Part shown: one piece after another, positions 4,416 to 54,761 of the stretch
How positions within the stretch are numbered: position 1 is the first letter of the stretch
How the letters are laid out: every line of letters starts with the position of its first letter
Assembly: GCA_020048985.1 (NCBI GenBank)
Contig: JAIFLR010000020.1
Span: 1 to 64,000 of the forward strand
DNA: 64,000 nt
Direction: 5' to 3'
Source of the DNA: Halobacteriovorax sp.
GTDB lineage: Bacteria; Bdellovibrionota; Bacteriovoracia; Bacteriovoracales; Bacteriovoracaceae
Notes under the pieces: generated by a model
Told to the model about the DNA's origin: nothing
Database searches by the model: none
What the model saw: the letters and a program-made list of their open reading frames with translations, nothing else
Position numbers and translations under genes: made by a program

Positions 4416-4446
4416 GGGCCTTTTATACCAGATAAGTAGCATTGAT

Positions 4447-4470
4447 AAAGGTTAAGTTTCTGTTAAGAGG
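4447..4470 (-). promoter_or_regulatory. Candidate PhoB/PhoP-box direct repeat upstream of the response regulator
   Basis: Plus strand GTTAAG-N5-GTTAAG (4451-4456 and 4462-4467), i.e. CTTAACAGAAACTTAAC on the coding strand, 11-bp period; TATAAAA at 4421-4427. Confidence 0.45.
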
Positions 4471-4546
4471 ATCAGAAAAACGGTGCCTGGCGTTAATTGT
4501 CGTGATTATTTGACTTTAAAGCCCCCTCGGTTCAAAATTTTTGCAA

Positions 4547-5503: not shown

Positions 5504-5518
5504 AATAAAGGAGCTTAT

Positions 5519-6202: not shown

Positions 6203-6211
6203 GGAGTATCT

Positions 6212-26468: not shown

Positions 26469-26505
26469 ATTTGAAATATTAAGATTATTCCTTGAGGAGA
26501 TATTT

Positions 26506-26733
26506 ATGGCTTCTAGAACCGCAGTAACTGAAAACCGTCGTAAAGCACACCACAGAGCTATGGGAGCAAAAAGAAAAGCTGCTAACCGTAACAAGGGAAC
26601 AACTCCTAAGTTTGCTATCCATGAAGATGGAGCTCCTAAAGCAAAAGCTGCTGCTGCACCTAAAGCTGTTAAAGCTCCTAAGGTTGCAAAAACTGCTGCC
26701 CCTAAAACGACTAAAGCTAAAGCCACTAAGTAA
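26506..26733 (+). CDS. Small, highly basic Lys/Ala/Pro-rich protein (histone H1-like tail)
   Basis: SD ttgaggaga 5-6 bp before ATG; MASRTAVTENRRKAHHRAMGAKRKAANRNKGTTPKFAIHEDGAPKAKAAAAPKAVKAPKVAKTAAPKTTKAKATK. Confidence 0.85.
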   Translation: MASRTAVTENRRKAHHRAMGAKRKAANRNKGTTPKFAIHEDGAPKAKAAAAPKAVKAPKVAKTAAPKTTKAKATK

Positions 26734-26746
26734 TTCATAATCGCTC

Positions 26747-36367: not shown

Positions 36368-38953
36368 TTATTCTCTTAAGGTGTCACAGCTTTTTTGAAA
36401 TAATTTATTTCCTGGACCAACAAAAACCGAAATCAACTGATCCGTTGAATTAAGGATGGCGGAAACGCCATACCCTGCTACGGCCATATTGTGAGCAGCG
36501 GTGGTACTGAGGCCTGAGGAAAGAGAGTTGTAAAAAGCGGCAGTAGACAGGACAGATCCCTGGTCATCAAATTTCATTCTTTCTAAATTCCCTGAATTGC
36601 CAGGGCCTTTTGGATAAAAAATCTCATATGAGCCATCATTTTTATAGATTATGGCCGTTGCCATGAGTCCCTCTGTTGCTGATGTCGAATTAGTTAAGTT
36701 CGAAAGGCCTGTTGCAAAATCGAGAACTCCAGTCGCCCAACCTGTCGTTTGGCATCCCGCTGCAGTGTCTGAGCAAATGCTTTGGTAGAGTCGGTTCGTG
36801 GCCCTATCATGGTACAAAATCATCGGTGAAGAGGTTACGGGGTTAAGGCTAACACGGATACCCTGGCCAGCACCTGCCACTGTTCCAACAATCGATGGTG
36901 TTCCCCACGAGACAGCACCGTTGGTTGAGCTGGTATATTTAACAAAGTTAGTGGCGCCAGCAGTGCGGTCCAAATAAGCGACGATTAAATCACCAGATTC
37001 ATTAAAGGCCGAACTCAGTCCGGAAGCAGTTCCTGCACCGAGGTTGTCGATGGTTTGAAGATTTGACCATGAAGAAGTTGATGAGTTGAAAAACGCCGCT
37101 TTCACACCTTTACTGGCAGCGTTTACGTTATCCAGAACAACCATGACTGGCATCTTTGTTCCATTATCTTCATACATCATTAAGCTCGTATCCGGAGTGG
37201 AGGGAAGTACTGCTGCGCCAGTGGGAGTTGCAGGGAATACAAAAAATTGCCAAACTGCTGATCCATTGGTTTGGGTGTTGGTAGCGAGATAAAATTTGGC
37301 AGAGACGTCATCATAAAAAGAAATCCATGGACGGTCTAGATGATCAAACTTTAGAGAAGGGGACATGGCACCCGCAGTTCCATTGATCGTTACCACTTCC
37401 CAAGTAGAGTTTAGCTCATTACCATTTCGATAAGAATACTTCAAAACCCCTGTGGCTCTTGCACCGGCCGAAAAATCAACGTAAGCCACGGCAACAGTGC
37501 CAGAAGAGGCTTCTGCCAGAGAAATATTGGCGGTGTTTGATGCTATTAGTTCAATGTGGCCTTCATTATTTACAAAACTATTTTGACTCGATGTAACTGC
37601 GGAACTGAGAGAAGTATCGGCAACTAAATTCATAACCAGATTGAATTTAGTGGCAGCGATATTCAAAAAATGTGTTGAGTAAAGGTCGTTGGTACTTGTA
37701 AGGGCCGCCCCCCCTTGGCGAGCAAGCGCCGTGCCTGCTGAGGTGTTCATCGTATGAACGGCGTTCCAAGAAGCAGCTCCATCCATGGCCGAAAGAAGAG
37801 TGCTGGCAGAATTATAATAATTCACTGCTGTGGCAGCTGAATTTGTTGTGAGATGGAATTTTCCGGTTGAGTCTCTTAAGAAATTAAACCAGATATCACC
37901 CGTTGTGGCAGATCCAACAGTTTGTGTTGATTCATCAAAAGTGGTAGCGGTTGCAAATGCCTGGCAGCCAATCGGTGTAGCATAATTTCCTGAGACATAA
38001 GTTTTAATGCCTATGGGTGCGGTCGGTCTGAGACCCGCAATTTTAATGGAGTCATTGGCAGTGGCCGAATCTATCTGAACTGAAGAATTGAGAATGCTCT
38101 GGTTTACGTATTGGGCATTCGCCGTCCAGTTGGCCCCAGTTAAACAGTTTGATAAGGTTGCGTTGGGGCAAGAGGTGACTCGGGCCGAAGACGTTCTGGC
38201 ATAAGTGACTACGGGATAATAGGCATCAACAGCTGAATCACCTGCTGTATCAGCGGCACACCAGGCAAACCCCAATCTGGTTTGAGCGGCGAGTATATTC
38301 GTTGATTCATTCCCAACGTTGTTGGTAATCGACATCGTTTGATAATTACTGAGATCGTGACAGTTAGTCTGGCAAAGGATCAGGCGAGGTTTACCAGTGA
38401 CAGCGGTATCAGTGAGATAAGCTCCACCCACGATTCCCGTTGGTGTTGTATCAATTCTAATCGCTCTAGAGGCAACTGCATTGTTCACTAGAGTTCTGGT
38501 ATTCCATGTCGCTGATGACACTGAAAGTGCGCTTGAGCGTGAAGCGAGAAAAACGTTTACTCCGCCATTGGTCCAGGCCAAAACTGGAATTCCAGTCGGA
38601 AGAATTTTAATAGAGATGTTATTAACGGCCGGTGCACCAGCTATTGTCTCATGTATGTAATTTTGTCCATTCCAGTAACTCAATTTTATCGAAAGAGCAG
38701 AGTTGTCAAAATAGGCCGTAACTGGGTAATCAGAAATAGGGTTGACGGCTACGTCAGATATTGTGCCTCTGATACTGGCAGACCCCTTAATTCCCGCATC
38801 GATCACGGAATCAGAGCAGATGGCTCCGTCTTGAGATGGTTCTGTGGTTACATTCGGCTCTTGAGCAATTCCACTTGAAGTGCCGGCATTGTTACATCCC
38901 GCCAATGTTGCCAAAGATAATAAAAGGAGAAATGGTCGAAATTTAAAATTCAT
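36368..38953 (-). CDS. Large lipoprotein, possible beta-propeller-like repeats
   Basis: MNFKFRPFLLLLSLATLAGCNNAG lipobox; repeated (S/A)SxxFDHLDRPWISFYDD / FNESGDLIVAYLDR / LNPVTSSPMILYHDR segments. Confidence 0.65.
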   Translation of the reverse strand: MNFKFRPFLLLLSLATLAGCNNAGTSSGIAQEPNVTTEPSQDGAICSDSVIDAGIKGSASIRGTISDVAVNPISDYPVTAYFDNSALSIKLSYWNGQNYIHETIAGAPAVNNISIKILPTGIPVLAWTNGGVNVFLASRSSALSVSSATWNTRTLVNNAVASRAIRIDTTPTGIVGGAYLTDTAVTGKPRLILCQTNCHDLSNYQTMSITNNVGNESTNILAAQTRLGFAWCAADTAGDSAVDAYYPVVTYARTSSARVTSCPNATLSNCLTGANWTANAQYVNQSILNSSVQIDSATANDSIKIAGLRPTAPIGIKTYVSGNYATPIGCQAFATATTFDESTQTVGSATTGDIWFNFLRDSTGKFHLTTNSAATAVNYYNSASTLLSAMDGAASWNAVHTMNTSAGTALARQGGAALTSTNDLYSTHFLNIAATKFNLVMNLVADTSLSSAVTSSQNSFVNNEGHIELIASNTANISLAEASSGTVAVAYVDFSAGARATGVLKYSYRNGNELNSTWEVVTINGTAGAMSPSLKFDHLDRPWISFYDDVSAKFYLATNTQTNGSAVWQFFVFPATPTGAAVLPSTPDTSLMMYEDNGTKMPVMVVLDNVNAASKGVKAAFFNSSTSSWSNLQTIDNLGAGTASGLSSAFNESGDLIVAYLDRTAGATNFVKYTSSTNGAVSWGTPSIVGTVAGAGQGIRVSLNPVTSSPMILYHDRATNRLYQSICSDTAAGCQTTGWATGVLDFATGLSNLTNSTSATEGLMATAIIYKNDGSYEIFYPKGPGNSGNLERMKFDDQGSVLSTAAFYNSLSSGLSTTAAHNMAVAGYGVSAILNSTDQLISVFVGPGNKLFQKSCDTLRE

Positions 38954-39770
38954 AAACAACTCCCATAGGGATGCTAACGCTGGCAAAGGAATTGGTTGCA
39001 TCTTTTACGCCTCTTTCTCCATCACCCTTAAAACTTCGTTTCTGATTTTCCGACATTAGACCAACACTTGCCGTCAGCGATTGAGAAATTGAGTAATTCA
39101 AAAAAAGCCCAGACAGAAAGTGCAGACCATTTTTGTAGTAACCCGTTTCCTTACCATATTCCTGCATATAAAGTGGCACCGTTAAAAGTGCATGGGCAGT
39201 GACTGAAAAATTTCTAACGATCTGATAGACCCATTTGGTCATTAAAGATGGACCGATTGATAGATTCTTGGTCAAAAGTTTATTATCGTTTGAAAAGCTG
39301 TCAGAGTTTTCATTTTGTATGGTGGCGCCAGGACCGACGTAAAAAAGATGATTTCCAGCAGAATAAATCCAGTTGTAGCTGGTGTTGAAGAACAGTCTGG
39401 AAGTTTGAATTGTTGCCCCACCTATATTGGTCGGTTCTTTGAATTGTGACTGCTGAAACATGAATCGAAAATCAAGTTGGTTCTGAAACTCACGAATTTC
39501 ATTTGTAAAACCAAGAAGGACTCCATTACTGCTTGAATTTTCGGTAGAGTAGTTCTGTCCCTCACCTTCTTGCTCAAATGAAATGGTCGCTGGTACGTAA
39601 AAAGATGAAAAGGTATGTTCTTTTTTAAATAGAGCGTTGGTAGAGACGGATTTTTTGACCGAAATATTAGTCTTCGGTTCTAATTCCTCTAGTTCATCTC
39701 TAACAACCTGAGCTTGGGCCGAAGGCATTGTTGAAAATAAGGACAGAATGAAAAAGGAGTATTTTTTCAT
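38943..39770 (-). CDS. Outer-membrane beta-barrel-like protein
   Basis: Signal peptide ending AQAQ; strand pattern; ends ...SIPMGVVYEF. Confidence 0.65.
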   Translation of the reverse strand: MKKYSFFILSLFSTMPSAQAQVVRDELEELEPKTNISVKKSVSTNALFKKEHTFSSFYVPATISFEQEGEGQNYSTENSSSNGVLLGFTNEIREFQNQLDFRFMFQQSQFKEPTNIGGATIQTSRLFFNTSYNWIYSAGNHLFYVGPGATIQNENSDSFSNDNKLLTKNLSIGPSLMTKWVYQIVRNFSVTAHALLTVPLYMQEYGKETGYYKNGLHFLSGLFLNYSISQSLTASVGLMSENQKRSFKGDGERGVKDATNSFASVSIPMGVVYEF

Positions 39771-39771
39771 A

Positions 39772-40872
39772 TTATTCTGGCAACTTGAGTTCTAGGCCGA
39801 CAGGCAGAACATTAGAATTAGAAATTTCACTTTTATTCAAACGATAAATTTCTTCCCACCGATTCTTTGTTCCAAAGTAATTGAGGGATATCAAACGTAG
39901 AGTGTCTCCCTTTTGAACAAGATGGGCCTTAGAGGCGGGACTACGTTCTGTGGTTACTGGTGGGGTCTGCCCTTTAGTCAATGCCGCTGAGTATACTTGG
40001 TTCAACCATGGACCCGGATTTTGAATCTGTTTTTGATTCGCAATATACTCAATTGCTTCTTTGCCTTGACCTCTCTCATTCAGTGTTGCCACTATTTCGT
40101 TTTTGACCCAGGTATCTGAAAAGGTACGATCGTAAAGATAGAGAACGGATAGTTTATCGAAAGAGCTCTCTTTCAGAATTAAACGGTAAAACATCTTCTC
40201 TGCAACATTGTTTTGTTTGTTGATCTCGAGAAGAGAGGAGAGCGACTTCTTTGATGCCTCAAAATCGTTTAATGAATAATTGAGAAAAGTGAGATACTCT
40301 GCGGATCTTTCTTTTTCAAAGTTTTTTTCAAAACTGGCCAAGAAATTTTCTCTTGCTGCTTGGTAATCTCTCTTCTTGTAGAAAGCTTGGCCAAGGAGAA
40401 ATTGAATTTCTGGTGTTTTTTCAATCGTTAATCGATTGAGTTTAACTAGTTGCTCCCAGTTTGATTCGTAAAAGTAGGAACGTGCGACAAGCGTCCAGGC
40501 CGATTTTAGATCTGCTGATTGATTTTGTATAATTTCAAAAAGAATCACTCGCGACTCTTCGTACTTCGTTTGATCACAATAGGATTGGGCAAGGACAAGA
40601 TTAATAGGAGCTGAAAGTGGATTGAGTTTCCGAAATGACTCAAGTTCTTTATTACCAGCTTCAATTTGGTCGAGTTTATAATAACTATTTGCTGCCAAAA
40701 TTGATAAATCTGATGTGTAGTTGTTAGATTTTTTTAAATGAGAAACTTCGCTTAGAGTTTGTTCGTAGTCTTGAGAATTGTAAAAATGATGGGCGCGGGA
40801 GACACGAAGGTCCCTGTCCAATGGCATTTGGGCGCAAGAAGCGATGATTAGGGTCAGGATGACAAATTTCAT
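39772..40872 (-). CDS. TPR lipoprotein with C-terminal LysM domain
   Basis: Lipobox LTLIIASCAQ; TPR repeats; LysM HLVQKGDTLRLISLNYFGTKNRWEEIYRLNKSEISNSNVLPVGLELKLPE. Confidence 0.8.
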   Translation of the reverse strand: MKFVILTLIIASCAQMPLDRDLRVSRAHHFYNSQDYEQTLSEVSHLKKSNNYTSDLSILAANSYYKLDQIEAGNKELESFRKLNPLSAPINLVLAQSYCDQTKYEESRVILFEIIQNQSADLKSAWTLVARSYFYESNWEQLVKLNRLTIEKTPEIQFLLGQAFYKKRDYQAARENFLASFEKNFEKERSAEYLTFLNYSLNDFEASKKSLSSLLEINKQNNVAEKMFYRLILKESSFDKLSVLYLYDRTFSDTWVKNEIVATLNERGQGKEAIEYIANQKQIQNPGPWLNQVYSAALTKGQTPPVTTERSPASKAHLVQKGDTLRLISLNYFGTKNRWEEIYRLNKSEISNSNVLPVGLELKLPE

Positions 40873-40985
40873 ATCAATAAACACCTCAATTTAATGTTAT
40901 CACCCTTGCTTCTAATCTCTTAAGCAGGCGAAAAGTGCCTAGATTTGGAAAATGCTTAGTGAAATGGTCGGGATTTTTTGATTGC

Positions 40986-41816
40986 TTAATCTTTAAGAAG
41001 TTTCAAGGCCATAGCGCTGAATTGATGAGATTGGATCAGGACGGAAGAGGCGGCTGCCAGTTTTCCTTCCGAGCGAATTTTTTCGGATGTTTCATACGCC
41101 ATATCAGCATCCATGGTGCGGGACATAGCATCACTCTCGTTCACATTCTTTTGCTCAAGATTGTTAATCGCCGATTGAATACGATTCTGATACGACCCGG
41201 CCTTGGCCCTTTTTTCTGAGAGGGTCTCAATGGCCTTATCAAGATGCTCAATATTGATCTGACCTTCTTCTGCGCTCACGATGGATGAGTCAACCAGACC
41301 TAAGTTAAATTCACTAACAGAAAGTTCTTTGCCAGAAAAACTAAGCTTCGAGTTCTCATCATCATTAATGCCTATCATGAAATCACGAATATTGCCGGAT
41401 TTATCCTGAAGAAGATTAGTGTTCATATAGCTTGAAGCTTTTGCCACACGTTCAACTTCTCTTCTGATTTGCATGTATTCACTGTTAAGCATGCCGCGAT
41501 CTGAGTCTTGTAAATGTCCACTTGCGGCCTGAATTGAGAGTTCTTTTAATCTTATGAGCATATTACTAATTTCGCTCATTGAACCTTCTGCAACTTGGAA
41601 TTGCCCAATAGCATCGTTAGCATTTCGGATGGCTTGATATTGTGATCTGATACTTGTTTTCTGTTTGTTACCAATAGAAAGTGAAGCTGCATCATCTGAA
41701 GCATTTCGCACACGACTGCCTGAGGAAATTTTTCCTGAAGCATTTTCGATTTGTTTTGTGTGTTCACTCATCGAGCGTTGTGCGCGAAGAGCAGACACGT
41801 TGGTGTTTATCCGCAT
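40986..41816 (-). CDS. Flagellin
   Basis: MRINTNVSALRAQRSMSEHTKQIENASGKISSGSRVRNASDDAASLSIG...; D0/D1 C-terminus SDAMSRTMDADMAYETSEKIRSEGKLAAASSVLIQSHQ. Confidence 0.95.
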   Translation of the reverse strand: MRINTNVSALRAQRSMSEHTKQIENASGKISSGSRVRNASDDAASLSIGNKQKTSIRSQYQAIRNANDAIGQFQVAEGSMSEISNMLIRLKELSIQAASGHLQDSDRGMLNSEYMQIRREVERVAKASSYMNTNLLQDKSGNIRDFMIGINDDENSKLSFSGKELSVSEFNLGLVDSSIVSAEEGQINIEHLDKAIETLSEKRAKAGSYQNRIQSAINNLEQKNVNESDAMSRTMDADMAYETSEKIRSEGKLAAASSVLIQSHQFSAMALKLLKD

Positions 41817-41981: not shown

Positions 41982-44900
41982 TTAGAAATTTTCGGCAGAT
42001 CCATAAGTTACATTACTTTCAGTACCAAACTTATATTCGGCTTTAATTCTGGCATCTGTTTCAATGCCCACTTTTAAGCGAATACCATCCATAGAACCAT
42101 TGAAGTATTGAGGGGCCCCACCGGTGTCACCAATGGCCCCAAATTGACTGAAAGGAGTTGTTTTAGCACCTGTCTCACTGGTTCCAGATCCATTTAAAAC
42201 TCCGTTGACGTAGAATTTCACCGCGCCGGTTGTTTCATTCCTACTCATGGTGATATGTCTCCATGAATTATCATTCACAATAAAGTTTGAAGTAGCATTG
42301 GCACCATTACCCGTACTGATTCGGATTGTTCCACTAGCGCTAATCCAGCCAAAGAAAATATCATTCCCACCACCTGCCTGCTCAACACCGGTGATTCCTG
42401 GCGCCTGCCAAACCGTGTTACTTCCTGACTGCGCTGTTTTCATCCAAAAAGAGAGAGTGGAAGTTTTTCCGATGATTTGTGCGAGGTTATAGCTGACATC
42501 TAAGCTGGATGCTCCATTGACTGAAATGGCATTGGCACTTGGACCTGTAAGATCTGTCACAGTACCTTGCGCTACTCCGGTTTTACCTGAACCTGTTGAG
42601 TCAATGTAGTTGACCCCAGATTTTTTCATGTTCCATACACCTGAAAATCCTGTCCAGGTATTGGTTGCGTCTTGCCCATCAACAGCAGAAGAATTGTTGT
42701 AATACATGTAAATAATTTTATCTACACTTGCGGCCATGGAAGGAACCTTGACCCAGATAAAACTTTCCCCAGACGAATTCCATGATTCAATTTCATATTT
42801 TAAAGCAGTTGTGTGATCGTCCAGCGTGAAACGAATATCGGCTCCACCAGCAAGGATGTCTGCATAACTGATTCTTGAAGCATTCAGCTTGATCATGACG
42901 GGTAAGTCAGTAAAGGCAGTTGCCTGATCTTTATTGTTCAGAATAATAGGAATTCGTTTTAAATAACTATTATTCCACCATACCAGCGCATTTACGAAAT
43001 TAATGTTGGCATTCTTGGCGGTCAAAAGTGCAGCATTGTCGGTGAAATTAATATTGACTGTCTGCTGAGTAGCATCTTTTACATAAATGGTTTTGGTGGC
43101 TTCAAACGCTGCATAGGTGAGTGATGTCGCTACACCCAGACAGTTTGAATCACTATAAAATGTCGCCGCACCATTTTGAGCAAGGTTGACTTGAACGGCA
43201 GTCGATTTTCCTACTGCTGTTCCATTGGCATCCACTAAGTTGACAACAATTGGATTGCAATCGTTGGTTTGCATCTCCACAGGAGTCGTAAAAGCAATTG
43301 CCGTTGGAGTACTTGCAGTTGTCACGTTCAACGTTGATGATACTAAGGAAGTTGGGTTGAAGATCAATGTTAAGCTTTGTGCAGTTGTCGTTGATTTAAA
43401 ATAGACAATTTTAGAACTTGTTCCAGCAGTAACGATAGTACTAGTGGCGGTTGTGGCGCACGTGTTGTTGGAGTAAAAGGTACCTGTTCCGTTGTTAACT
43501 ACAAGGTTAATTGTTTGGTTTGCTGAAACATTTCCATTCACGCCTGCCGCCGTAACGGTATTAATGGTGTAGGGGATACATTGATTAATCATGATACCCG
43601 TTGGACCCGAGATACTGGTGTGAGTAGGAACAATCACTACACCTGTCCCGGTCAGATTTCTTGAAACTGATTGTAAGATTGCTCCATTGTTGTATTGAAT
43701 TTGAACAGCATCATTATGAACAGCAGCCGCCGTTGGAGTATAGAGTAAAACGATTGAGCAGGTACCAGTAATGGTTGTGGTACATGTTCCACCTGTTCCA
43801 GGATATGCCCCGCCTTTAAAAGTGAAAGGAGCTGCGAGACCTATTTCCGAAATACTTGTCGCATTGGCCATACCTGATTTATTTAAGATGATAGTTACCT
43901 CGGCCGTACCACCGACGTTGACTGAACCGAAATCATGGGTTGAAGTCACTGCGTATGTTAAGACTGCAGGAGTCACATGGGTTCGAGACAGTTGAGTGGC
44001 GGCCGTGTTGCCGTTACCGGCAGCATCAGTCGCCGAATTTGATGCTAAATTGACTGTCACAGAACCGGCACCAGCTGGAGTCACAGTAATGTCGTATAAT
44101 GTTGTAGAAACCGCAGTGAAACCCGAAGCCGATCCATTTCCAATGACAAAATCAGTAATTGCCATTCCCGTTACGGCCTCATTGAAGGTTGCCCTCACAA
44201 CCCATGAGGCAGCACTGGTTGTTGCAGGTTCCGCTGAGCTTAGAGCAACTGTTGGAAAGGCAGAGTCTTTAGCAACCGTGGTAGAGGCTTGAGTGGCACT
44301 ATTTCCATTTGCATCTGTATGGTTAGCAGTGATGGATACGGTTGCCGAGTCAGCCACTGAACTGACATTAAGTGCACCAGTTGTCCAGGTGAGAGACGTA
44401 CATGTTGGAGTGGCAGCTACCCCTCCAACGTTAACAGATACAGTTCTCGCGTTTTCACTACAGGTCCCGCTAACAGTGTAGGCGGTTTTATTTGAGTCAT
44501 TAATTCCAGGAGATGAAGTGATGGCCACTGTTGGATTAGATGTATCCTTAATTACTGTTGTTGATGCCTGAGTCGCAGCATTACCAGCAGAGTCTGTATG
44601 GTTTGCGGTAATCGCAAGGGTAAGAGAATCAGCTGCTGCAGTGACATTGATGGCTCCAGTAGTCCAAGTAAGTGAAGAACAGGTCGGAGTTGCTGCTATT
44701 CCACCAACGTTGACTGAAACGGCACGGGTATTTTCTGAACAAGTCCCACTGACTGTGTAGGCAGCTTTGTTTGCATTATTTATAATTGGTGCTGAGGTAA
44801 TGGCGACTGTTGGAACCGCAGTATCCTTGGTAACAGTGATTCCTGCCTGAACAGCAGTATTTCCGTTCACATCGCTATGGTCTGCAGTAATAAGTAAAGT

Positions 44901-47900
44901 TGAAGAATCTGGATTTCCTGAAACGTCAACCGTTGCAGTCCAAGTGAGAAGTGTACATGTATCAGATGTATTAACACTTCCGACATTAATCACAACCGTT
45001 TGGCCAGTTTCAGAACAAGTCCCACTTACGGTGTAAGCTGTTTTATTTGAATTACTAATAACGGGCGAAGATGTTATTGCAACCGTTGGGTTCGATGCAT
45101 CTTTAACCACAGTCGTTGAGGCTTGAGTGGCAGCGTTGCCGGCAGCATCTGTGTGATTGGCACTGATCGCTATTGCTGCACCATCGGCAACGCCTGAGAC
45201 GTTGAGAGTTGCAGACCAGGCGAGCGCTGTACAGGTCGGAGTAGCGGCTACACCTCCAACATTCACAGATACAGTTCTGGTGTTTTCAGAGCAAGTTCCG
45301 CTGACAGGGTAGGCATTCTTATTCGCATTATTAATCGCAGGTGATGAAGTAATAGCGACTGTCGGGATAACAGTATCTTTGACAATTGTTATTGAAGCTT
45401 GAGTCGCTGCATTTCCAAAAGTATCTGTGTGGTTTGCAATGGCAGAAACGGAAGCACTATCTGCTACTGCTGTCAGGTTCAGAGTACTGGACCATGCAAG
45501 AGTTGTACAAGTTGGAGTTGCTGTCACTCCACCAACATCAATTGATACGATTCTGGAATTCTCAGAGCAGGTACCACTAATTGTATAAGCTGCTTTGTTG
45601 GCATTATTAATTAATGGTGATGATGTAATCGCTACAGTTGGAGGAGTGGCATCTTTGATAACACTGGTTGAAGCTTGAGTGGCAGCATTTGCGGCCGCAT
45701 CAGAATGGTTGGCGGTAATTGAAACAGAAGCCCCATCAGCAACAGCGGTGACGTTAAGGGTTGCAGACCAAGTTAGCGTCGTACAAACAGGAGTTGAGTT
45801 CACGCCACCAACACTTACGGATACTGCTCTGGTATTTTCAGAACACGTCCCGCTGACAGGGTAGGCGGCTTTATTCGCATTAGAGATGGCGGGAGAAGAA
45901 GTGATGGCCACTGTTGGGACAACTGTATCTTTTAACACACTGGTTGATGATTGAGTGGCAGCATTTCCTACGGAATCACTGTGGTTGGCGGTAATGGAAA
46001 CAGAAGCGCCATCGGCAACAGCAGTCACATTTACAGCTGTCGTCCAAGCGAGTGCAGTACAGGTAGGAGTTGCAGTTACGCCACCAACACTTACAGATAC
46101 TGCTCTGGTATTTTCTGAACATGTCCCACTTACTGGATAAGCTGCTTTATTGGAATTATTAATTACGGTCGATGATGTGACTGCCACCGTTGGAGCAGTG
46201 GTGTCTTTAAGAACAGTGTTTGAAGCTTGAGTGGCGTTGTTTCCAGCGGCATCGCTATGGTTGGCCGTGATACTGACTGATGCTCCATCAGCGACTGAAG
46301 CAACATCAAGAGTTGTCGACCATGCAAGTGTTGTACAAGTCGGAGTTGCTGTGACTCCACCAACACTGATTGATACCGTTCTCGTATTTTCAGAGCAAGT
46401 CCCGCTGACTGCATACGCCGCTTGATTGGCGGTGTTAATGAGTGGGGCAGAGGTAATGGCCACAGTTGGAGCAGAGGTATCTTTGAGAACCGTCGTTGAT
46501 GCCTGTGTGGCAGCATTTCCAGAAACATCTGAATGATTTGCTGTAACTGTGACGGAAGCTCCATCAGTCACACCGGTTACATTTAAAGTGGCTGACCAAG
46601 CGAGCGCGGTACAAACAGGAGTTGCGGTGGCGCTTCCTACAGTGATTGAAACAGATCTGGTCTCTTCAGAACAAGTTCCGCTAATTGTGTATGCGGCCTT
46701 GTTGGCATTATTAATCACAGGACTAGAAGTGATTGCGACAGTAGGAAGGGCAGTATCTTTAGAAATGGTTGAAGTTGCTTGAAGGGCATTGTTACCAGCA
46801 GCATCTGTATGATCCGCCAAAACTGAGATGGAGGCTCCATCAGCGACACCACTGACATCAAGAGTTGTTGACCATGCAAGGGTGGAGCAAGTCGCAGTCG
46901 CCGCTACACCACCAACACTGACAGATACGCTCCTTGTATTTTCAGAACAAGTCCCGCTGACTGGGTAGGCAGACTTATTGGAGTTATTAATCGACGCAGA
47001 TGAGGTGACAGCGACAGTCGGAATGACTGAGTCCTTAAGAACTGTGGTTGAAGCTTGAGTGGCAGAGTTTCCGGAAACATCGGAATGGTTTGCTGTAATT
47101 GCAATGGAGGCCCCGTCGGAAACAGCTGTGACATCCAAAGTTGCAGTCCATGCAAGAGTTGTACAAGTTGGAGTAGCCGAAACACCGCCGACACTTACTG
47201 AAACGGACCTCGTGTTTTCAGAACAAGTCCCGCTGACTGTATATGCTGCTTTATTGGCATTATTGATGGCGGAAGATGACGTAATTGTGACTGTTGGTAG
47301 CGCAGTGTCTTTGACTACAGTGCTTGAAGCCTGAGTGGCATTATTTGCGCCGGCATCAGTATGATTGGCAGTGACTGAAACTGAAGCCCCGTCAGAAACG
47401 GCCGTGACGTTAAGTGATGTCGACCAAGTGAGTGTTGTACAAGTAGGATTGGCAGTCACTCCACCAACATTCACTGAGACCGTTCTGGTGTTCTCAGAAC
47501 ATGTACCAGCAACAGGGTAAGCCGCTTTATTAGTGTTGTTAATCGCCGGAGATGAAGTAATTGCTACGGTAGGAGCAACTGTATCTTTAAGAACTGTGGT
47601 TGAGGCCATCGTTGCTGAATTCCCAGCAGCATCATCATGATTGGCGGTGATCGCAACAGAAGCTCCATCAGCAACAGCTGTGACGTTTAGAGTTGCCGAC
47701 CAAGTAAGACCTGAACAAGTTGGAGTGGAGGTTACTCCCCCGACATTGATGAGAACAGTTTGTGTGTTTTCAGAACATGTCCCACTGATTGCATAGGCTG
47801 CCTTGTTGGCAATATTAACTGTTGGAGATGATGTTATGGCAACAGTTGGTAGGGCAGCATCTTTGACTACAGAGGTGGTGGCCTGGGTCGCCGAGTTTCC

Positions 47901-50900
47901 TGCTGCATCTGTATGGTTGGCGGTAATCGAAACTGAGGCTCCGTCGGCAACAGCAGTTACGTTGAGTGTTGCTGACCAGGTAAGCGTGGTACAGGTAGGA
48001 GTTGAAGTTACACCACCCACGTTTACAGAAATCGTCCTCGTATTATCAGAGCAAGTTCCGCTGACCACATAAGCCGCTTTATTAGCACTGTTGATGAGGG
48101 GAGAAGAAGTAATAGCGACAGTTGGAATTGATGTGTCTTTTAGAACTGTTGTCGCCGCTTGGGTGGCATTGCCCCCAACTGAATTATCATGATCAGCAGT
48201 GATACTAATTGATGCCCCATCTGCAACTGCAGTTACATTCAGAGTGGCTGACCATGTAAGCGTTGTACAGATCGGACTTGCGGTGACGCCACCTACGTTG
48301 ATTGATACGATTCTGGTATTTTCAGAACAGGTACCACTGATCACGTATGCCGCTTTGTTGGTATTATTGACGGCCGGAGATGAAGTGATTGCAACAGTTG
48401 GAAGACCTGTGTTTTTAACTACGGTTGTGGAGGCTTGAGTGGCAGAGTTTGCGGCCGCATCTGTGTGATTGGCAGTGATGGCGATGGAAGCTGCATCAGC
48501 GACTCCGGAAACATTCAGCGTGGCTGACCAGGCAAGAGTTGTACAAGTTGGAGTTGCGGTAACTCCGCCGACACTTACAGAAACTGTTCTTGTATTTTCA
48601 GAACAAGTACCACTTATTGGATAAGCAGTATTATTGGAATTATTAATACCAGGTGAAGAGGTGATCGCAATTGTTGGGATCACGGTATCTTTCACAACAC
48701 TTGTTGAAGATTGTGTTGCCGAGTTTGCGGCCGCGTCTGAGTGATCAGCAGTTATTGCGACAGAGGCACCGTCCCCAACAGCGGTGACATTTAGGGTCGC
48801 AGACCATGTCAGAGTTGTACAAGAGGGAGAGGCCGAAACTCCACCAACATTTATTGAAACAGTTCTGGTATTTTCAGAACATGTTCCGCTCACGACGTAA
48901 GCAGCTTTATTGGTATTATTAATCACTGGTGAAGAAGTGATCGACACAGTTGGAAGTGCAGTGTCTTTCAGAACAGTGTTAGAAGCCTGGGTCGCACTAT
49001 TGCCGGAAACATCACTATGATTGGCCGTGATCGTGACTGAAGCACTATCTGAGACAATTGTTACGTCGAGAGTGGTTGACCAAGCAAGGGCCGTACAAGT
49101 AGGAGTCGCCGCTACACCGCCCACATTAATTGATACCACCATGGAATTTTCAGAGCATGTTCCGCTTACTACATAAGAAGTTTTATTGGCATTATTAATC
49201 ACAGGAGAAGAAGTGATGGCCACAGTTGGATTTGAGGTGTCTTTGACAACAGTCGCAGAAGCCTGAGTCGCTGTATTCCCGGCAGCATCTGAATGGTTAG
49301 CGGTAATTGAAACAGACGCTCCATCAGCGACAGCGGTCACGTTAAGAGTTGCGGACCATGCGAGAGTCGTACAAACAGGAGTTGAGGTCACGCCACCAAC
49401 ACTTACAGAAACTGTTCTAGTATTTTCAGAACAAGTTCCGCTAATTACATAGGCTGCCTTATTGACGTTATTAATAAGAGGAGAGGAGGTAATGGCAACT
49501 GTCGGGTTAGAGGTATCTTTTAATACAGTTGTTGTTGCTTGGGTGGCGGTGTTTCCGCTGGCATCTGAATGATCTGCTGAGATAGTGACTGAAGCACTGT
49601 CGCTCACAGCTGTTACGTCGAGTGTTGCGGACCACGCAAGAGTTGTACATGTCGGAGTTGCGGTCACTCCACCTACGTTCACTGAAACTGATCTCGCATT
49701 TTCGGAACAAGTCCCACTGACTGTGTAGGCAGCTTTATTGCTATTATTAATAATCGGTGAGGCAGTGATGGCAACAGTTGGCAGAGATGTATCTTTCAAT
49801 ACAGTGGTGGAAGCCTGGATCGCAGAGTTGCCAACGGCATCTGAATGATTGGCCGAGATGGAAACAGAGGCACTATCGGCCACAGCGGTTACGTTAAGGG
49901 TTGCAGACCACGCTAGAGTCGTACAAGTTGGGGTTGAGGTCACGCCACCCACGTTCACTGATACTGATCTAGTGTTTTCAGAACAAGTTCCGCTGACTGT
50001 ATAGGCTGATTTGTTGGCAGCATTAATCATGCCAGATGAGGTAATGGCGACTGTCGGAAGGGCCGTGTCTTTTAGAACCGTGGTTCCGGCCTGAACTACA
50101 GTATTTCCGGCAGCGTCAGTATGATCGGCAGTAATAAGTAAAGAAGCAGAATCAGGGTTTCCCGAAACATTGACTGTCACCGACCATGTGAGGAGTGTAC
50201 ATGTATTGGTGGCATTCACACTTCCAATATTAATTGTGACAGTCTGCCCTGTTTCCGAGCAAGTACCGCTGACGGTATAGGCATTTTTATTTGCGTTATT
50301 AATCAGTGGAGATGAAGTAATTGAAACGGTTGGATTCGAGGTATCTTTAGCCACTGTGGTCGAGGCCTGAGTTGCAGAGTTTCCGGCCGCATCTGTATGA
50401 TTGGCAGTAATTGAAATTGAAGCGCTATCGGCCAGAACTGAAACATCTAAAGATGCAGACCAAGTTAAGGTCGTACAAGTTGGAGTCGCCGTAACACCAC
50501 CTACGCTTACAGATACCGTTCTGGTATTTTCATTACATGTTCCGCTGATGGGATAGGCGGTTTTGTTATTATTATTAATTGCCGGAGCAGATGTAATGGC
50601 TACTGCTGGATTGATTGTATCTTTAACAACTGCGGCAGTGGCTTGAGTGGCCGAGTTCCCAGCTGTATCTGTGTGGTTAGCAGTTATCGAGACGGAAGCG
50701 CCATCAGCAAGGGCCGAAACGTTTAGTGTTGCAGACCAAGTAAGCGCTGAGCACAGAGGCGTAGCCGTCACTCCAGCAACACTTACAGAAACTGTCCTGG
50801 TGTTTTCAGAACAAGCACCACTCACTGGGTAAGCTGTTTTATTTAAATTATTGATGGATGGGGAAGATAAAATCGAAACAGTTGGAATCAGGATATCTTT

Positions 50901-53900
50901 TACTACTGAAGTCGTTGCTTGGATTGCCGCGTTTCCAATGGCATCGATGTGATCAGCAGAAATGGATACTGAAGCACCATCGGCAAGACCAGAGACATTG
51001 AGAGTTGCGGACCAGGCAAGAGCGCTACATGTAGGGGTGGCAGTTACGCCCCCTATGTTGATAGAAACTATTCTGGTATTTTCAGAACAAGTACCAGCAA
51101 CTGGGTAAGCTGCTTTGTTTGAGTTATTAATCGAAGGAGCAGATGAAATCGTCACTGTCGGAAGAGCTGAACTCTTAACAACTGTGGTTGACGCTTGAGT
51201 GGCGGAATTTCCGGCAGCATCAGTGTGGTTGGCGGTTATAGGGATGGACCCCCCATCAGCGAGTGCTGTCACGTCTAAGGTTGCCGACCAGGTAAGAGTT
51301 GTACAAATTGGAGATGCTGTTACGCCGCCAACGCTTACTGAAACAGTTCTAGTATTTTCTGAGCATGTCCCGCTTACCGGATAAACAGCTTTGTTGGCAT
51401 TACTAATCACCGGCGAGGATGTAATGGCTACTGTCGGGTTGGTTGTGTCTTTAAGGACTGTTATTCCCGCCTGGACCGCAGTATTTCCAACTGCATCAGT
51501 ATGATCAGCAGTAACAAGCAAAGTTGCCGAATCAGGATTGCCGGAAACGTTTAGTGTCGCTGACCAAGTTAACAAACTACAAAGAGTTGAAGTGTTAGTA
51601 CTTCCCACATTGACCGTGACATTTCTTCCTGTCTCTGAGCAGGTACCGCTGACAGTGTAGGCAGTTTTATTGGCATTATTTACCAGCGGTGAAGAAGAAA
51701 TCGCAACGCTCGGGTTGGAGGTATCTTTAACAATAGTGGCCGTTGCTTGAGTGGCAGAGTTCCCTGCGGCATCACTTAGGTCGGCCGTGACTGCTACTGA
51801 AAGGCTGTCTGAGAGTGCGGAGACGTTGAGAGTCGCGGTCCAGGCGGAGCTAGTGCAAGTTGGCGTAGCGGTGATTCCTCCAACAATAACTGAAACAATC
51901 CTGGTATTTTCGTTACACGTTCCACTGACTACATAAGCCGCTTTGTTGGCATTATTAATTGCAGGCGAGGAAGTAATCGCCACGATTGGATTTGTGGCAT
52001 CTTTAACAACTGTTCTTGAAGCATTCGAGCTATTGCCACCAGAATTGGTATGAGTCGCAGTAATCGAAACTGTAGCGCTATCTGCTACTGCCGATACGTT
52101 GAGAGTCGCAGTCCACGCAAGAGCGCTACAAGTGGGAGTAGAAGTCACTCCACCAACGTTTACTGTTACGGTCCTCGTGTTCTCGCTACAGGCCCCACTT
52201 ACGGTATAAGCAGTTTTGTTTGAGCTATCAATCGCAGGGTAAGAGAGAATGGATATAGTTGGAAACTGAGTGGTTGTAGTGAGTGACATTTCATTACTGA
52301 GTACACTCGTGCCAGTTCCAATTGTGTTGTTGGCACGAACTGCAATGTAGTATGTCGTAGAGGCTGACAGACCAGTTAGTACAAATGGAGACGATCTGTT
52401 AAGAGATGTATTTGTGTAAATTCCTGGAGAGATACCATATCTAATATCGTAGGTAGTTGCACCGGTGGCACTTCCCCAAGTAAGGTTGGCGGAACTAAAT
52501 GTCGCGACCGTTGCGCCGGTTAAGCTGAATGAACTTATTGGACGAATAGAAACTGGCGAAGAATCTGCTGAATCGAGACCATTGAAGCTTCTCACGGCAT
52601 AGAAGTAAGTTGTTCCGTTGGAAACAGTTGGATCAACGTAGCTATTGGTTGCGACATTTGCATCAAGGAGTGAAAGAGGGCTCGCGCTCAAGCCCCGGTA
52701 AACTTTGTAGTTCGTTGCGCCCGCAACAGCACTCCAGGTTAAAGTAACCGATGATGGTGAGGCAGCCGCAATTAATCCAGTGGGAGCAGCTATCGCCGCA
52801 ATGGGTGTGGCCGAAAGCTGATTGGATGAATACTGATTGCTCCCATTTCCAATCGCATTTTTTGCGACGACTTTAAAGTAATAAGGAACTCCACCTGTGA
52901 GGCCGCTCATAACTAAAGGGGATGACACATTCGTTGAAGTAAGATTCAAAGAACCAGAATTTGTGCCGTAACTAATATCGTAAGTTGTAGCACCTGTAGT
53001 TGCCGGCCAGTTAAGAGTCACTTGGGTTGGTGCTGGTCCAGCGACTACCGTCGTGAGATTAAAAGCGGAAATGGAGCGAGCAGATTGTGCTGATGACAAG
53101 ATTGAATCAAAGCCATTGAAAGCTTTTAAAGCATAAAAGTAAGTCGTACCGTCAGTAGTTGTTGAGTCAGTGTAGTTACTTGAAGTGATTCCACTCGCCA
53201 ATTCTGTGAGAGAACCCGCTGTTGTTCCTCGGAACACTTTATAAGAAGTTGCTCCACTTAAATCATTCCAATCTAAAGCGATTTGTCCGGGAGCTGCAGT
53301 GAGGGCAAGACCAGTTGGCGCAGCGAGGGGCCCGAAGGGTTGATGATTGATCTCGTTGTTACTTGTGGCACTTCCACTATTGCTGTTAACGGCAACGATT
53401 CTAACGTAATACCTTAATCCGTTGGTTAGGCCTGATAGGACATAGGGAGAAGTCACATTACTTATGGTGCTAGGGTAGTAGCCCGAACTCGTTCCGTACA
53501 TCAAGTTGTAGGAAGTTGCATTATTAGAATTGTCCCAGCTAAGAGTAATAGTTTTGTCGCCTACGCTGGATGAAGTGATGTTAAAGGATCCCACGGATAA
53601 AACTGATCTAATGCTCGTTACTTTTTTAGAGCCAGCAGCGTTTGTTGCTTTGATGTCGAGGTAATAAATTGTATCAGGATCAAGACCCGTAATTTGACAG
53701 CTTTCCTGATTTCCAGAGCAACTAGGCACCGGAGTTGTAATTTCAGAGCTTGAAGTTCCGATGAAGAATTCATAGTTGTCGGCACGTGTTGAGGCCTGCC
53801 AAACTATTTCAACATTTCCGTTTGAAGCTTTGACTTGAGTGAACTGAAAAGCTGCAGGGGGGTCTAAAAGTGGAGTATGGTTATAGGCAACGACAGATCC

Positions 53901-53972
53901 ACCGCTCGGATTAGTACAACCAGAGCTGATTACCATCAGCAGCATTGAAAAAATAAATAAAATCTTCGTCAC
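41982..53972 (-). CDS. Giant multidomain lipoprotein (~3996 aa): FN3-like, ~29 Ig-like repeats, choice-of-anchor-like, DUF2341, LamG-like
   Basis: Single open frame of ~12 kb; signal/lipobox FSMLLMVISSGCTNPSGG; repeated GATSYKVFRG / GATTYDISYG FN3 signatures; tandem INNANKAAYxVSGTCSENTRxVSVxVGGVTATPTCTTLxWSATLNVTAVADGASVSITANHSDAAGNxATQASTTVLKD; C-terminal WWNNSYLKRIPIILNNKDQ... Confidence 0.93.
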   Translation of the reverse strand: MTKILFIFSMLLMVISSGCTNPSGGSVVAYNHTPLLDPPAAFQFTQVKASNGNVEIVWQASTRADNYEFFIGTSSSEITTPVPSCSGNQESCQITGLDPDTIYYLDIKATNAAGSKKVTSIRSVLSVGSFNITSSSVGDKTITLSWDNSNNATSYNLMYGTSSGYYPSTISNVTSPYVLSGLTNGLRYYVRIVAVNSNSGSATSNNEINHQPFGPLAAPTGLALTAAPGQIALDWNDLSGATSYKVFRGTTAGSLTELASGITSSNYTDSTTTDGTTYFYALKAFNGFDSILSSAQSARSISAFNLTTVVAGPAPTQVTLNWPATTGATTYDISYGTNSGSLNLTSTNVSSPLVMSGLTGGVPYYFKVVAKNAIGNGSNQYSSNQLSATPIAAIAAPTGLIAAASPSSVTLTWSAVAGATNYKVYRGLSASPLSLLDANVATNSYVDPTVSNGTTYFYAVRSFNGLDSADSSPVSIRPISSFSLTGATVATFSSANLTWGSATGATTYDIRYGISPGIYTNTSLNRSSPFVLTGLSASTTYYIAVRANNTIGTGTSVLSNEMSLTTTTQFPTISILSYPAIDSSNKTAYTVSGACSENTRTVTVNVGGVTSTPTCSALAWTATLNVSAVADSATVSITATHTNSGGNSSNASRTVVKDATNPIVAITSSPAINNANKAAYVVSGTCNENTRIVSVIVGGITATPTCTSSAWTATLNVSALSDSLSVAVTADLSDAAGNSATQATATIVKDTSNPSVAISSSPLVNNANKTAYTVSGTCSETGRNVTVNVGSTNTSTLCSLLTWSATLNVSGNPDSATLLVTADHTDAVGNTAVQAGITVLKDTTNPTVAITSSPVISNANKAVYPVSGTCSENTRTVSVSVGGVTASPICTTLTWSATLDVTALADGGSIPITANHTDAAGNSATQASTTVVKSSALPTVTISSAPSINNSNKAAYPVAGTCSENTRIVSINIGGVTATPTCSALAWSATLNVSGLADGASVSISADHIDAIGNAAIQATTSVVKDILIPTVSILSSPSINNLNKTAYPVSGACSENTRTVSVSVAGVTATPLCSALTWSATLNVSALADGASVSITANHTDTAGNSATQATAAVVKDTINPAVAITSAPAINNNNKTAYPISGTCNENTRTVSVSVGGVTATPTCTTLTWSASLDVSVLADSASISITANHTDAAGNSATQASTTVAKDTSNPTVSITSSPLINNANKNAYTVSGTCSETGQTVTINIGSVNATNTCTLLTWSVTVNVSGNPDSASLLITADHTDAAGNTVVQAGTTVLKDTALPTVAITSSGMINAANKSAYTVSGTCSENTRSVSVNVGGVTSTPTCTTLAWSATLNVTAVADSASVSISANHSDAVGNSAIQASTTVLKDTSLPTVAITASPIINNSNKAAYTVSGTCSENARSVSVNVGGVTATPTCTTLAWSATLDVTAVSDSASVTISADHSDASGNTATQATTTVLKDTSNPTVAITSSPLINNVNKAAYVISGTCSENTRTVSVSVGGVTSTPVCTTLAWSATLNVTAVADGASVSITANHSDAAGNTATQASATVVKDTSNPTVAITSSPVINNANKTSYVVSGTCSENSMVVSINVGGVAATPTCTALAWSTTLDVTIVSDSASVTITANHSDVSGNSATQASNTVLKDTALPTVSITSSPVINNTNKAAYVVSGTCSENTRTVSINVGGVSASPSCTTLTWSATLNVTAVGDGASVAITADHSDAAANSATQSSTSVVKDTVIPTIAITSSPGINNSNNTAYPISGTCSENTRTVSVSVGGVTATPTCTTLAWSATLNVSGVADAASIAITANHTDAAANSATQASTTVVKNTGLPTVAITSSPAVNNTNKAAYVISGTCSENTRIVSINVGGVTASPICTTLTWSATLNVTAVADGASISITADHDNSVGGNATQAATTVLKDTSIPTVAITSSPLINSANKAAYVVSGTCSDNTRTISVNVGGVTSTPTCTTLTWSATLNVTAVADGASVSITANHTDAAGNSATQATTSVVKDAALPTVAITSSPTVNIANKAAYAISGTCSENTQTVLINVGGVTSTPTCSGLTWSATLNVTAVADGASVAITANHDDAAGNSATMASTTVLKDTVAPTVAITSSPAINNTNKAAYPVAGTCSENTRTVSVNVGGVTANPTCTTLTWSTSLNVTAVSDGASVSVTANHTDAGANNATQASSTVVKDTALPTVTITSSSAINNANKAAYTVSGTCSENTRSVSVSVGGVSATPTCTTLAWTATLDVTAVSDGASIAITANHSDVSGNSATQASTTVLKDSVIPTVAVTSSASINNSNKSAYPVSGTCSENTRSVSVSVGGVAATATCSTLAWSTTLDVSGVADGASISVLADHTDAAGNNALQATSTISKDTALPTVAITSSPVINNANKAAYTISGTCSEETRSVSITVGSATATPVCTALAWSATLNVTGVTDGASVTVTANHSDVSGNAATQASTTVLKDTSAPTVAITSAPLINTANQAAYAVSGTCSENTRTVSISVGGVTATPTCTTLAWSTTLDVASVADGASVSITANHSDAAGNNATQASNTVLKDTTAPTVAVTSSTVINNSNKAAYPVSGTCSENTRAVSVSVGGVTATPTCTALAWTTAVNVTAVADGASVSITANHSDSVGNAATQSSTSVLKDTVVPTVAITSSPAISNANKAAYPVSGTCSENTRAVSVSVGGVNSTPVCTTLTWSATLNVTAVADGASVSITANHSDAAANAATQASTSVIKDATPPTVAITSSPLINNANKAAYTISGTCSENSRIVSIDVGGVTATPTCTTLAWSSTLNLTAVADSASVSAIANHTDTFGNAATQASITIVKDTVIPTVAITSSPAINNANKNAYPVSGTCSENTRTVSVNVGGVAATPTCTALAWSATLNVSGVADGAAIAISANHTDAAGNAATQASTTVVKDASNPTVAITSSPVISNSNKTAYTVSGTCSETGQTVVINVGSVNTSDTCTLLTWTATVDVSGNPDSSTLLITADHSDVNGNTAVQAGITVTKDTAVPTVAITSAPIINNANKAAYTVSGTCSENTRAVSVNVGGIAATPTCSSLTWTTGAINVTAAADSLTLAITANHTDSAGNAATQASTTVIKDTSNPTVAITSSPGINDSNKTAYTVSGTCSENARTVSVNVGGVAATPTCTSLTWTTGALNVSSVADSATVSITANHTDANGNSATQASTTVAKDSAFPTVALSSAEPATTSAASWVVRATFNEAVTGMAITDFVIGNGSASGFTAVSTTLYDITVTPAGAGSVTVNLASNSATDAAGNGNTAATQLSRTHVTPAVLTYAVTSTHDFGSVNVGGTAEVTIILNKSGMANATSISEIGLAAPFTFKGGAYPGTGGTCTTTITGTCSIVLLYTPTAAAVHNDAVQIQYNNGAILQSVSRNLTGTGVVIVPTHTSISGPTGIMINQCIPYTINTVTAAGVNGNVSANQTINLVVNNGTGTFYSNNTCATTATSTIVTAGTSSKIVYFKSTTTAQSLTLIFNPTSLVSSTLNVTTASTPTAIAFTTPVEMQTNDCNPIVVNLVDANGTAVGKSTAVQVNLAQNGAATFYSDSNCLGVATSLTYAAFEATKTIYVKDATQQTVNINFTDNAALLTAKNANINFVNALVWWNNSYLKRIPIILNNKDQATAFTDLPVMIKLNASRISYADILAGGADIRFTLDDHTTALKYEIESWNSSGESFIWVKVPSMAASVDKIIYMYYNNSSAVDGQDATNTWTGFSGVWNMKKSGVNYIDSTGSGKTGVAQGTVTDLTGPSANAISVNGASSLDVSYNLAQIIGKTSTLSFWMKTAQSGSNTVWQAPGITGVEQAGGGNDIFFGWISASGTIRISTGNGANATSNFIVNDNSWRHITMSRNETTGAVKFYVNGVLNGSGTSETGAKTTPFSQFGAIGDTGGAPQYFNGSMDGIRLKVGIETDARIKAEYKFGTESNVTYGSAENF
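44262..52266 (-). repeat. ~29 tandem in-frame repeats, ~276 bp (92 aa) each
   Basis: Counted by eye in the translated ORF from FPTISILSYPAIDSSNK to the last ...ASTTVAKD; antisense spurious ORFs recur at multiples of 276 bp. Confidence 0.92.
52290..53880 (-). repeat. Six fibronectin-III-like domains encoded at the N-terminal end
   Basis: Alternating APTGL...GATSYKVFRG...TYFYAxxxFNG and FxLT...GATTYDIxYG...SPxVxSGLxxxxxYY units. Confidence 0.75.
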
Positions 53973-54056: not shown

Positions 54057-54761
54057 TCAAAATGAGTGACTGACCAGAAAACAATAACCTAGGAAATCGT
54101 GGGTAAACTCAACGTCGGAATTGGGGGCAGTTGTTGCCTGATAAATGCCTTTAATTTGGTAGAGGGCTCCGAAGGGACCAACCCACCCGAGGCGAGCATA
54201 GGCTTCACCGCCCACCCCAGCTTCAGTCGCAACATCCCCACCTTTGGCCGGAAAAATAGTGTAGGCCTTGGCGCCAAGTCCCCACAAAAGACCAATTCTT
54301 CTTCTTTGACCGAAGGAGAGATGAGCTCCAGATTGAATGAAACCTTTCTTCACGACTTCGAATTCTGTCGAAGTTTTTGCAAAGTAGAGTGGATGATCCT
54401 GTTGCATGAGAAAAAATCCCAATTTTCCAATTGGTGAAAATTTATTTATGAGTTCTAGTCCAAATTGGTTAAGGACTTGATCTTCGTTTGTGAGAGTTCC
54501 ATAAGCTGGTTCATCAAAGCGAACAAAATGGACGCCGCCAAAAGCCTTTAGGGCGAATTTTGAACCTAATCTCAGAGTGTAAGCGCCAAGCCAGTAGGGA
54601 TTTTGGGAACTGGTTAATTTTCCTTTTGAATTATTTGCTTTCTGAACACCTTTTAAAGTGTGAAATCCCAACCCGTATTCAAAAGAAAAATCATGACTTT
54701 CCAGATTGATATCTGCGATCGCTGAAAAAGAATAGAGGAGAAAAAATACCAACGCTTTCAC
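54057..54761 (-). CDS. Outer-membrane beta-barrel-like protein
   Basis: Signal peptide MKALVFFLLYSFSAIA; strand pattern; ends FLVSHSF. Confidence 0.65.
   Translation of the reverse strand: MKALVFFLLYSFSAIADINLESHDFSFEYGLGFHTLKGVQKANNSKGKLTSSQNPYWLGAYTLRLGSKFALKAFGGVHFVRFDEPAYGTLTNEDQVLNQFGLELINKFSPIGKLGFFLMQQDHPLYFAKTSTEFEVVKKGFIQSGAHLSFGQRRRIGLLWGLGAKAYTIFPAKGGDVATEAGVGGEAYARLGWVGPFGALYQIKGIYQATTAPNSDVEFTHDFLGYCFLVSHSF

Follow-up and report, generated by a model that had tools for sequence, protein, structure and literature searches.

The window analysed here is a 64-kb stretch of DNA from a Halobacteriovorax-type bacterium, a little-studied relative of the predatory Bdellovibrio. Its minus strand carries a giant gene (hereafter 'the giant') that lies between a gene for a small secreted protein, OMP_B, and a flagellin gene (Table 1). 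An SD-like AAGGTGG stands upstream of the GTG start. The initial annotation had described a single unbroken frame of ~12 kb, and we confirmed this frame, its strand and its coordinates. The product begins with a signal peptide and a lipobox (Cys19), after which come a short linker with a conserved HTPLL motif, six FN3 domains, the 29 Ig repeats and one Big_12 domain; a C-terminal module of 660 residues completes it. Because exact DNA repeats within the gene are all shorter than 40 nt, and the best-matching pair of repeats is only 78% identical at the DNA level, the gene can be resolved by short reads. Since, in addition, an independent genome from another genus (G160) holds a gene of equal length, the repeat number is credible without long reads, and we ruled out a collapsed or chimeric assembly.

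Table 1 Features of the giant and its neighbours, with positions in the window
Feature	Position	Strand	Evidence
Giant gene	41982-53972	-	GTG start at 53972, stop at 41982; 3996 aa, uninterrupted frame
Signal peptide and lipobox, Cys19 the predicted lipidated residue	53916..53972	-	Sequence; Cys19 position kept in relatives
Constant base: short HTPLL-motif linker and six FN3, aa 20-570	52263..53915	-	Pfam fn3; 46-57% identity to N-terminal base of the genus's other giants
Stalk: 29 Ca_tandemer/Ig repeats of ~92 aa, aa 571-3239, one Cys pair apiece	44256..52262	-	NF033510, AF2, PDB folds
Big_12 Ig domain, aa 3236-3327	43992..44267	-	Pfam PF19078, 40 bits, cut-off 27
Tip, proximal: ASH-type Ig and two Cys-paired beta domains, aa 3338-3664	42982..43961	-	Profile, relatives; AF2 pLDDT about 80-93 over most
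DUF2341, aa 3710-3778	42639..42845	-	Pfam PF10102, 52.2 bits, cut-off 23.4, E=9e-14
LamG/concanavalin-like terminal domain	41985..42600	-	Laminin_G_3 in relatives L022, L023, L025; sub-threshold in the giant alone
OMP_B, 234-aa secreted, probable outer-membrane beta-barrel	54057..54761	-	Aromatic beta-signal at end
Cassette flagellin, separate subfamily found with the giant	40986..41816	-	Pfam Flagellin_N/C; distribution
Three island genes (877-aa lipobox protein, 275-aa putative outer-membrane protein, TPR-LysM protein)	36368..40884	-	Between flagellin and 188-aa membrane gene

Elsewhere in the window, T2SSE-family ATPase and secretin genes (24085-26738; Pfam T2SSE, Secretin and pilus N-terminal domain) are probably part of a Tad-like pilus locus, and four consecutive genes with lipobox-like signal peptides (4541-8469) look LPP20/LpoB-like.

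Domains of the giant protein

The lipobox proposed in the initial annotation, ...VISSG-C19, fits the pattern, and its Cys is conserved among relatives that share the same base. The residue at -3 is Ser, which the permissive pattern allows and which is not the commonest. Pfam fn3 matches the giant at 8e-16, with four stretches significant individually; the earlier count of six FN3-like domains holds on the basis of spacing and alignment.

The repeats, previously put at about 29, number exactly 29. Nearly all are exactly 92 aa long (some have 91 or 93), and every one contains two Cys residues 20 apart. The NCBIfam model Ca_tandemer (NF033510, 'Ca2+-stabilized repeat-containing adhesin') matched 16 stretches of the giant with 285.4 bits against a cut-off of 50 (E=1e-86), and the Pfam matches above cut-off were fn3, Big_3_3, Big_12 and DUF2341. 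A two-repeat AlphaFold (AF2) model had a pLDDT of 92, and its best PDB folds were stalk repeats of giant adhesins, which upholds the Ig assignment: the nearest was MpAFP RII (4p99; E 4.8e-10, TM 0.54 for the pair), with further matches to Bap, SiiE and an RTX extender, then to GhpA of Aureispira (E about 6e-5 to 3e-4). The PDB entries that support the fold are 4p99, 5irb and 2yn5. Acidic residues are near-invariant at repeat columns 27, 61, 73 and 89. The Big_12 domain is a 30th Ig domain, unlike the 29 stalk repeats.

The giant contains 67 Cys residues, namely the lipobox Cys and 66 others, 58 of which form the 29 regular pairs. Setting the lipobox Cys aside, this pairing favours transit through the periplasm and disfavours direct type 1 secretion. 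Judged from their spacing, the 29 pairs are as expected of a protein oxidised in the periplasm, where each could form a disulfide.

The DUF2341 domain lies where the initial annotation placed it and is the only copy in the genome. The LamG-like end that was also proposed scores below threshold in the giant itself (0.008), but at 1e-17 to 1e-18 (Laminin_G_3) in relatives; four relatives align along the whole tip with 41-46% identity. LamG is the best conserved part of the tip, with invariant NDIFFGWI, NGV and DTGG motifs. The segment first read as choice-of-anchor-like (about aa 3338-3450) proved to be an ASPM/Hydin (ASH, choice-of-anchor D) type Ig domain, sub-threshold in the giant (E=0.003) and reaching 1e-42 (Cep192/HYDIN-type) in relatives. 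AF2 modelled LamG poorly in the whole tip, for which a five-sequence alignment was used; given this, we relied on fold matches for the ASH-like part only. DUF2341 has been reported both from PilY-type pilus-tip adhesins and from large proteins encoded at archaeal pilus loci (PMC4858521).

The tip might act not as an adhesive but as a tethered carbohydrate-active enzyme on prey or environmental glycans. The ConA-like fold is also found in glucanases, and both the LamG/ConA-like assignment and a weak profile match between the tip and the extracellular arabinanase chain 5hon (E 0.016) point in this direction. We nevertheless regard an enzymatic tip as very improbable: Pfam and profile searches of the giant found no glycoside hydrolase family above threshold, and ExbB-type proteins also carry a fused DUF2341-LamG, no enzyme being named there. 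On the Klebsiella plasmid pKqq_SB98_1 (L142), a DUF2341-LamG region is fused to an ExbB/MotA-type protein (2941-4779), and genes for ExbD, TonB and a two-partner pair of the filamentous-haemagglutinin kind stand in the same run.

A profile search of 369 Bdellovibrionota genomes found the tip module (~660 aa) in 14, from four families, and it was C-terminal in every ORF read. Some carriers are stalkless (family f6), one has five ASH domains (G356), others have other Ig-like stalks (G117, G119, G151 and G330), and the giant shares its Ca_tandemer stalk with G022, G160 and G161. A new observation is that, over four Bdellovibrionota families, the tip is combined with stalks of anywhere from 0 to 29 repeats. 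Because one module is found on ORFs spanning 600-4004 aa in length, stalk and tip can be separated, and from this distribution the tip is the shared unit and the stalk the variable spacer. The f6 homologues G212, G213, G215 and G217 have a signal peptide but no visible lipobox, the f6 member L023 being an exception with a lipobox; lipid anchoring is therefore not universal for the tip.

Repeat number, locus and neighbours in related genomes

The homologue in G160, which belongs to another genus of the same family, has 3996 aa from its Met, 29 repeats and 67 Cys residues. Matching Cys positions are 19, 85, 92, the 29 pairs and then six in the tip. Identity to the giant is 55% in the base, 67% in the stalk and 57% in the tip, and the pairwise stalk alignment contains one-residue indels only. 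Repeats at the same position are 63.2% alike, compared with 56.4 +/- 1.1 after permutation, and none of 50,000 permutations was as good. The stalk count of 29 is thus exactly conserved across two genera, which is new, and the colinear match of 29 to 29 rules out a fluid repeat array. The Ig-type giant of G022 has at least 28 repeats up to its contig end. A neutral alternative for the fixed length is that repeats ~60% alike may be too diverged to recombine; against this we set the FN3-stalk giants described below, which differ in length between close species at the same locus (2516 versus 2859 aa).

Within the genus, the site of the giant lies between TsaC and a 188-aa membrane protein adjoining kdsC-kdsA-pyrG. 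The site is empty, with these housekeeping genes directly adjacent, in 13 genomes. A giant of another type occupies the same junction in G007, G024, G021 and G005 and, as read from fragments, also in G020 and G022; it is complete in G007 and G024. The base is homologous in the first four (46-50% over 560 aa), whereas the stalk consists solely of FN3 domains and the tip, in those contigs that include it, bears no relation to the DUF2341-LamG tip. Hence a further new finding is that sister species carry at one junction either a different giant, with a homologous anchor, an FN3 stalk and an unrelated tip, or nothing. The layout of base, stalk and lectin-like tip put forward in the initial annotation is supported by this homologous anchor where stalk and tip differ, by the recurrence of one tip at the C-terminus of stalks differing in length and kind, and by the domain and fold evidence.

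In a tree of the base, the giant groups with G023 (0.999), contrary to the species tree. The G023 gene encodes six FN3 followed by Ig repeats, and G023 and G160 have the same FN3-Ig junction as the giant; together with the grouping of the base, this rules out a fresh chimera of FN3 base and Ig stalk on the giant's branch. Whole-gene replacement fits the sequences better. The simplest reading is that an Ig-type gene replaced an FN3-type gene on the giant's lineage, because the close relative G020 has an FN3-type tip beside the same flagellin.

Several further observations concern giants in the genus. G022 seems to hold both kinds, an FN3-type with a G007-type tip beside the flagellin (L100, G022:C112) and an Ig-type convergent with OMP_B (L027, G022:C9), both ending at contig ends. 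FN3-type giants end in a conserved tip of 700 aa (36-54% identity between species; L044 9061-11160, L043 277-2379) for which Pfam gave no match above threshold, leaving this tip region undescribed. In G006 another insertion, 3.3 kb in size and containing a long open frame, lies at this same TsaC-kdsC junction (L090, G006:C2, 4412-7777), so the junction may be an insertion hotspot. In G009, G016 and G019 (L097, L098 and L099) the junction is empty, and unrelated loci encode other giants, 3150-3758 aa in length, whose N-termini are lipobox-like and whose start resembles FN3. The giant is inverted relative to OMP_B in G022, G160 and G161; we claim no phase-variable switch by inversion, since the strongest inverted repeats around the gene are short and imperfect.

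OMP_B matched no family in Pfam or NCBIfam. It is present in giant-bearing genomes and missing from empty-site ones (the protein matched at 23% in G002 is no orthologue), and it adjoins the giant in both genera where it was found. In G001, a close relative of the source genome that has no giant, only a broken, decayed remnant of OMP_B is left. The flagellin gene on the other side belongs to a distinct subfamily, whose members share at least 59% identity and occur in G000, G020, G017, G007, G024, G022, G023 and G021; other flagellins of the genus reach at most 48%. In G160, OMP_B, the giant and a flagellin (54%) are again neighbours at a different chromosomal site, near what we read as an lgt-like gene, with the giant in the opposite orientation; in G161, as in G022, the giant is convergent with OMP_B. 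That the trio stays together although location and orientation change speaks for a functional link. There is an exception to the linkage: in G023 the giant and the flagellin lie on separate contigs with other neighbours. We conclude that the giant, a small, probable outer-membrane barrel and a private flagellin make up a cassette, which in the other genus occupies a different site and has the giant in a different orientation. This is likewise new; the sequences indicate that the cassette is transferable. The three island genes are missing at this place in G007, G017, G020, G021 and G024.

The private flagellin, distinct from others of the genus and adjoining the giant in a second genus at a second locus, raises the possibility that the giant decorates a sheathed flagellum. 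The cassette flagellin would form or modify a filament whose outer-membrane sheath carries the lipoprotein, making it adhesive or altering its drag; the flagella of Bdellovibrio do have an outer-membrane sheath (PMC7175336). However, linkage to a flagellin does not show targeting to the sheath, the G023 flagellin lies away from the giant, and the source genome contains six other flagellin matches. We consider this reading unlikely.

Proposed function of the giant

In our view the giant probably leaves the cytoplasm by the Sec route and becomes an outer-membrane lipoprotein that stands on the cell surface as a long adhesin, with a stiff stalk of fixed length and a DUF2341-LamG tip. After Sec export, Cys19 would be lipidated and the base held in the outer membrane, with the six FN3 domains forming the base of the appendage. 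Each of the 29 beads, which are of the calcium type and may bind calcium, would be pinned by its own disulfide, made during periplasmic transit. Scaled from 190 A per four 104-aa RII repeats (PMC4083281), the stalk, presumably stiffened by Ca2+, would measure ~120 nm (29 x ~4.1 nm). The DUF2341-LamG module at the tip would do the binding, its target probably being a glycan on another cell or on a surface, and OMP_B is the likely outer-membrane partner. Adhesion to prey would be plausible if this uncultured genus is predatory, by analogy with Bdellovibrio, where a lipobox adhesin is at work at the interface with the prey (PMC11003981).

Alternatively, the giant could be an outer-membrane lipoprotein that faces the periplasm and runs alongside the envelope, serving as scaffold or spacer instead of reaching out from the cell. 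Under default Lol sorting, many lipoproteins of the outer membrane stay on its inner face, and a search for a Slam surface-lipoprotein exporter identified none, although its control gave no match either. Nevertheless, an extended stalk of more than 100 nm is too long for the usual periplasm, the repeats match the stalks of surface adhesins, and species differ in the stalk and tip found at the locus, a turnover to be expected for exposed proteins. An inward-facing giant thus seems to us rather unlikely. A more far-reaching proposal, which we offer as speculation and hold to be improbable, is that OMP_B, the giant and the private flagellin constitute a transferable appendage system. The fixed-length stalk would stand on the sheath of a dedicated flagellum with OMP_B as its partner, species would switch targets by exchanging stalk and tip while keeping the base constant, and the stalk of 29 repeats would act as a molecular ruler dictated by the appendage's geometry.

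With a stalk predicted to be lipid-anchored, a Cys pair per bead and exactly 29 beads across two genera, the outward-projecting adhesin that we favour is a good test case for whether adhesin length is selected. It also poses the question of how so large a lipoprotein (400 kDa) could get across the outer membrane or be displayed there. Natural comparisons are available at the locus within one genus: an Ig stalk, an FN3 stalk with another tip, or none.

Comparison with known systems

Gram-negative giant adhesins are mostly known as type 1 secreted proteins with widely variable repeat numbers. By profile and fold matches, the giant resembles the RTX/LapA-like adhesins (MpAFP/MpIBP, MhLap and SiiE) in having a long stalk of calcium-type Ig repeats that would project a distal binding region. 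It differs from them in its predicted N-terminal lipid anchor, in place of type 1 secretion, RTX and a retention plug, and in its repeats, which have two Cys each, are divergent and are fixed at 29; RTX repeat numbers vary strongly, as in RtxA, with 5-40 by strain (PMC7493085). We rejected a type 1 secreted RTX/LapA-type adhesin, given no RTX family match, a DUF2341-LamG C-terminus and a lipobox at the N-terminus. An inverse autotransporter of the intimin/invasin kind was rejected too, since the N-terminus consists of a lipobox and FN3, with no beta-barrel in the same chain.

Leptospira LigB is a lipoprotein with a C-terminal non-repeat region, and the giant shares its layout of lipobox, tandem Ig domains and C-terminal non-repeat region. 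LigB is a surface protein whose terminal Ig repeats bind ligands (PMC2892007). Unlike the giant, it carries Ig domains of another family, about 12 in number, and lacks both a DUF2341-LamG tip and an FN3 base; Big_2, the LigB repeat family, is not among the giant's Pfam matches, its Ig-type matches being Big_3_3 and Big_12. The grappling hook GhpA of Aureispira, which is predatory, is also a giant surface protein with similar Ig-like repeats by fold. Unlike the giant, it belongs to the Bacteroidota, and the likeness is one of fold at the level of the repeat, a PDB search having found no sequence relation.

In Bdellovibrio, Bd0875 is a lipobox MIDAS adhesin at the predator-prey interface (PMC11003981). 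The giant is likewise a lipobox protein of a Bdellovibrionota member; unlike it, Bd0875 has a MIDAS fold in a small beta-rich domain and no stalk, and a MIDAS adhesin of this type was discarded as the giant has no VWA match. The MAT fibres of Bdellovibrio, with diverse C-terminal tips for prey recognition (PMC10769870), are trimeric beta-prisms of S74 or NS74 types, unlike the giant, in which we found no S74 chaperone or trimeric beta-prism domain; a MAT fibre was thus ruled out. Two proteins with S74 chaperone domains of the MAT-fibre type are encoded elsewhere in the source genome (G000:C19:1820-1993 and 7082-7243).

Finally, type IV pilus-tip proteins also carry DUF2341 in a large protein, with a tip location that is inferred there (PMC4858521); unlike them, the giant has no pilin linkage and bears its DUF2341 on an Ig stalk with a predicted lipid anchor. 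We conclude that the giant combines a predicted lipoprotein anchor, a probably disulfide-rich Ca_tandemer stalk of fixed length, belonging to a class already known, and a DUF2341-LamG tip.
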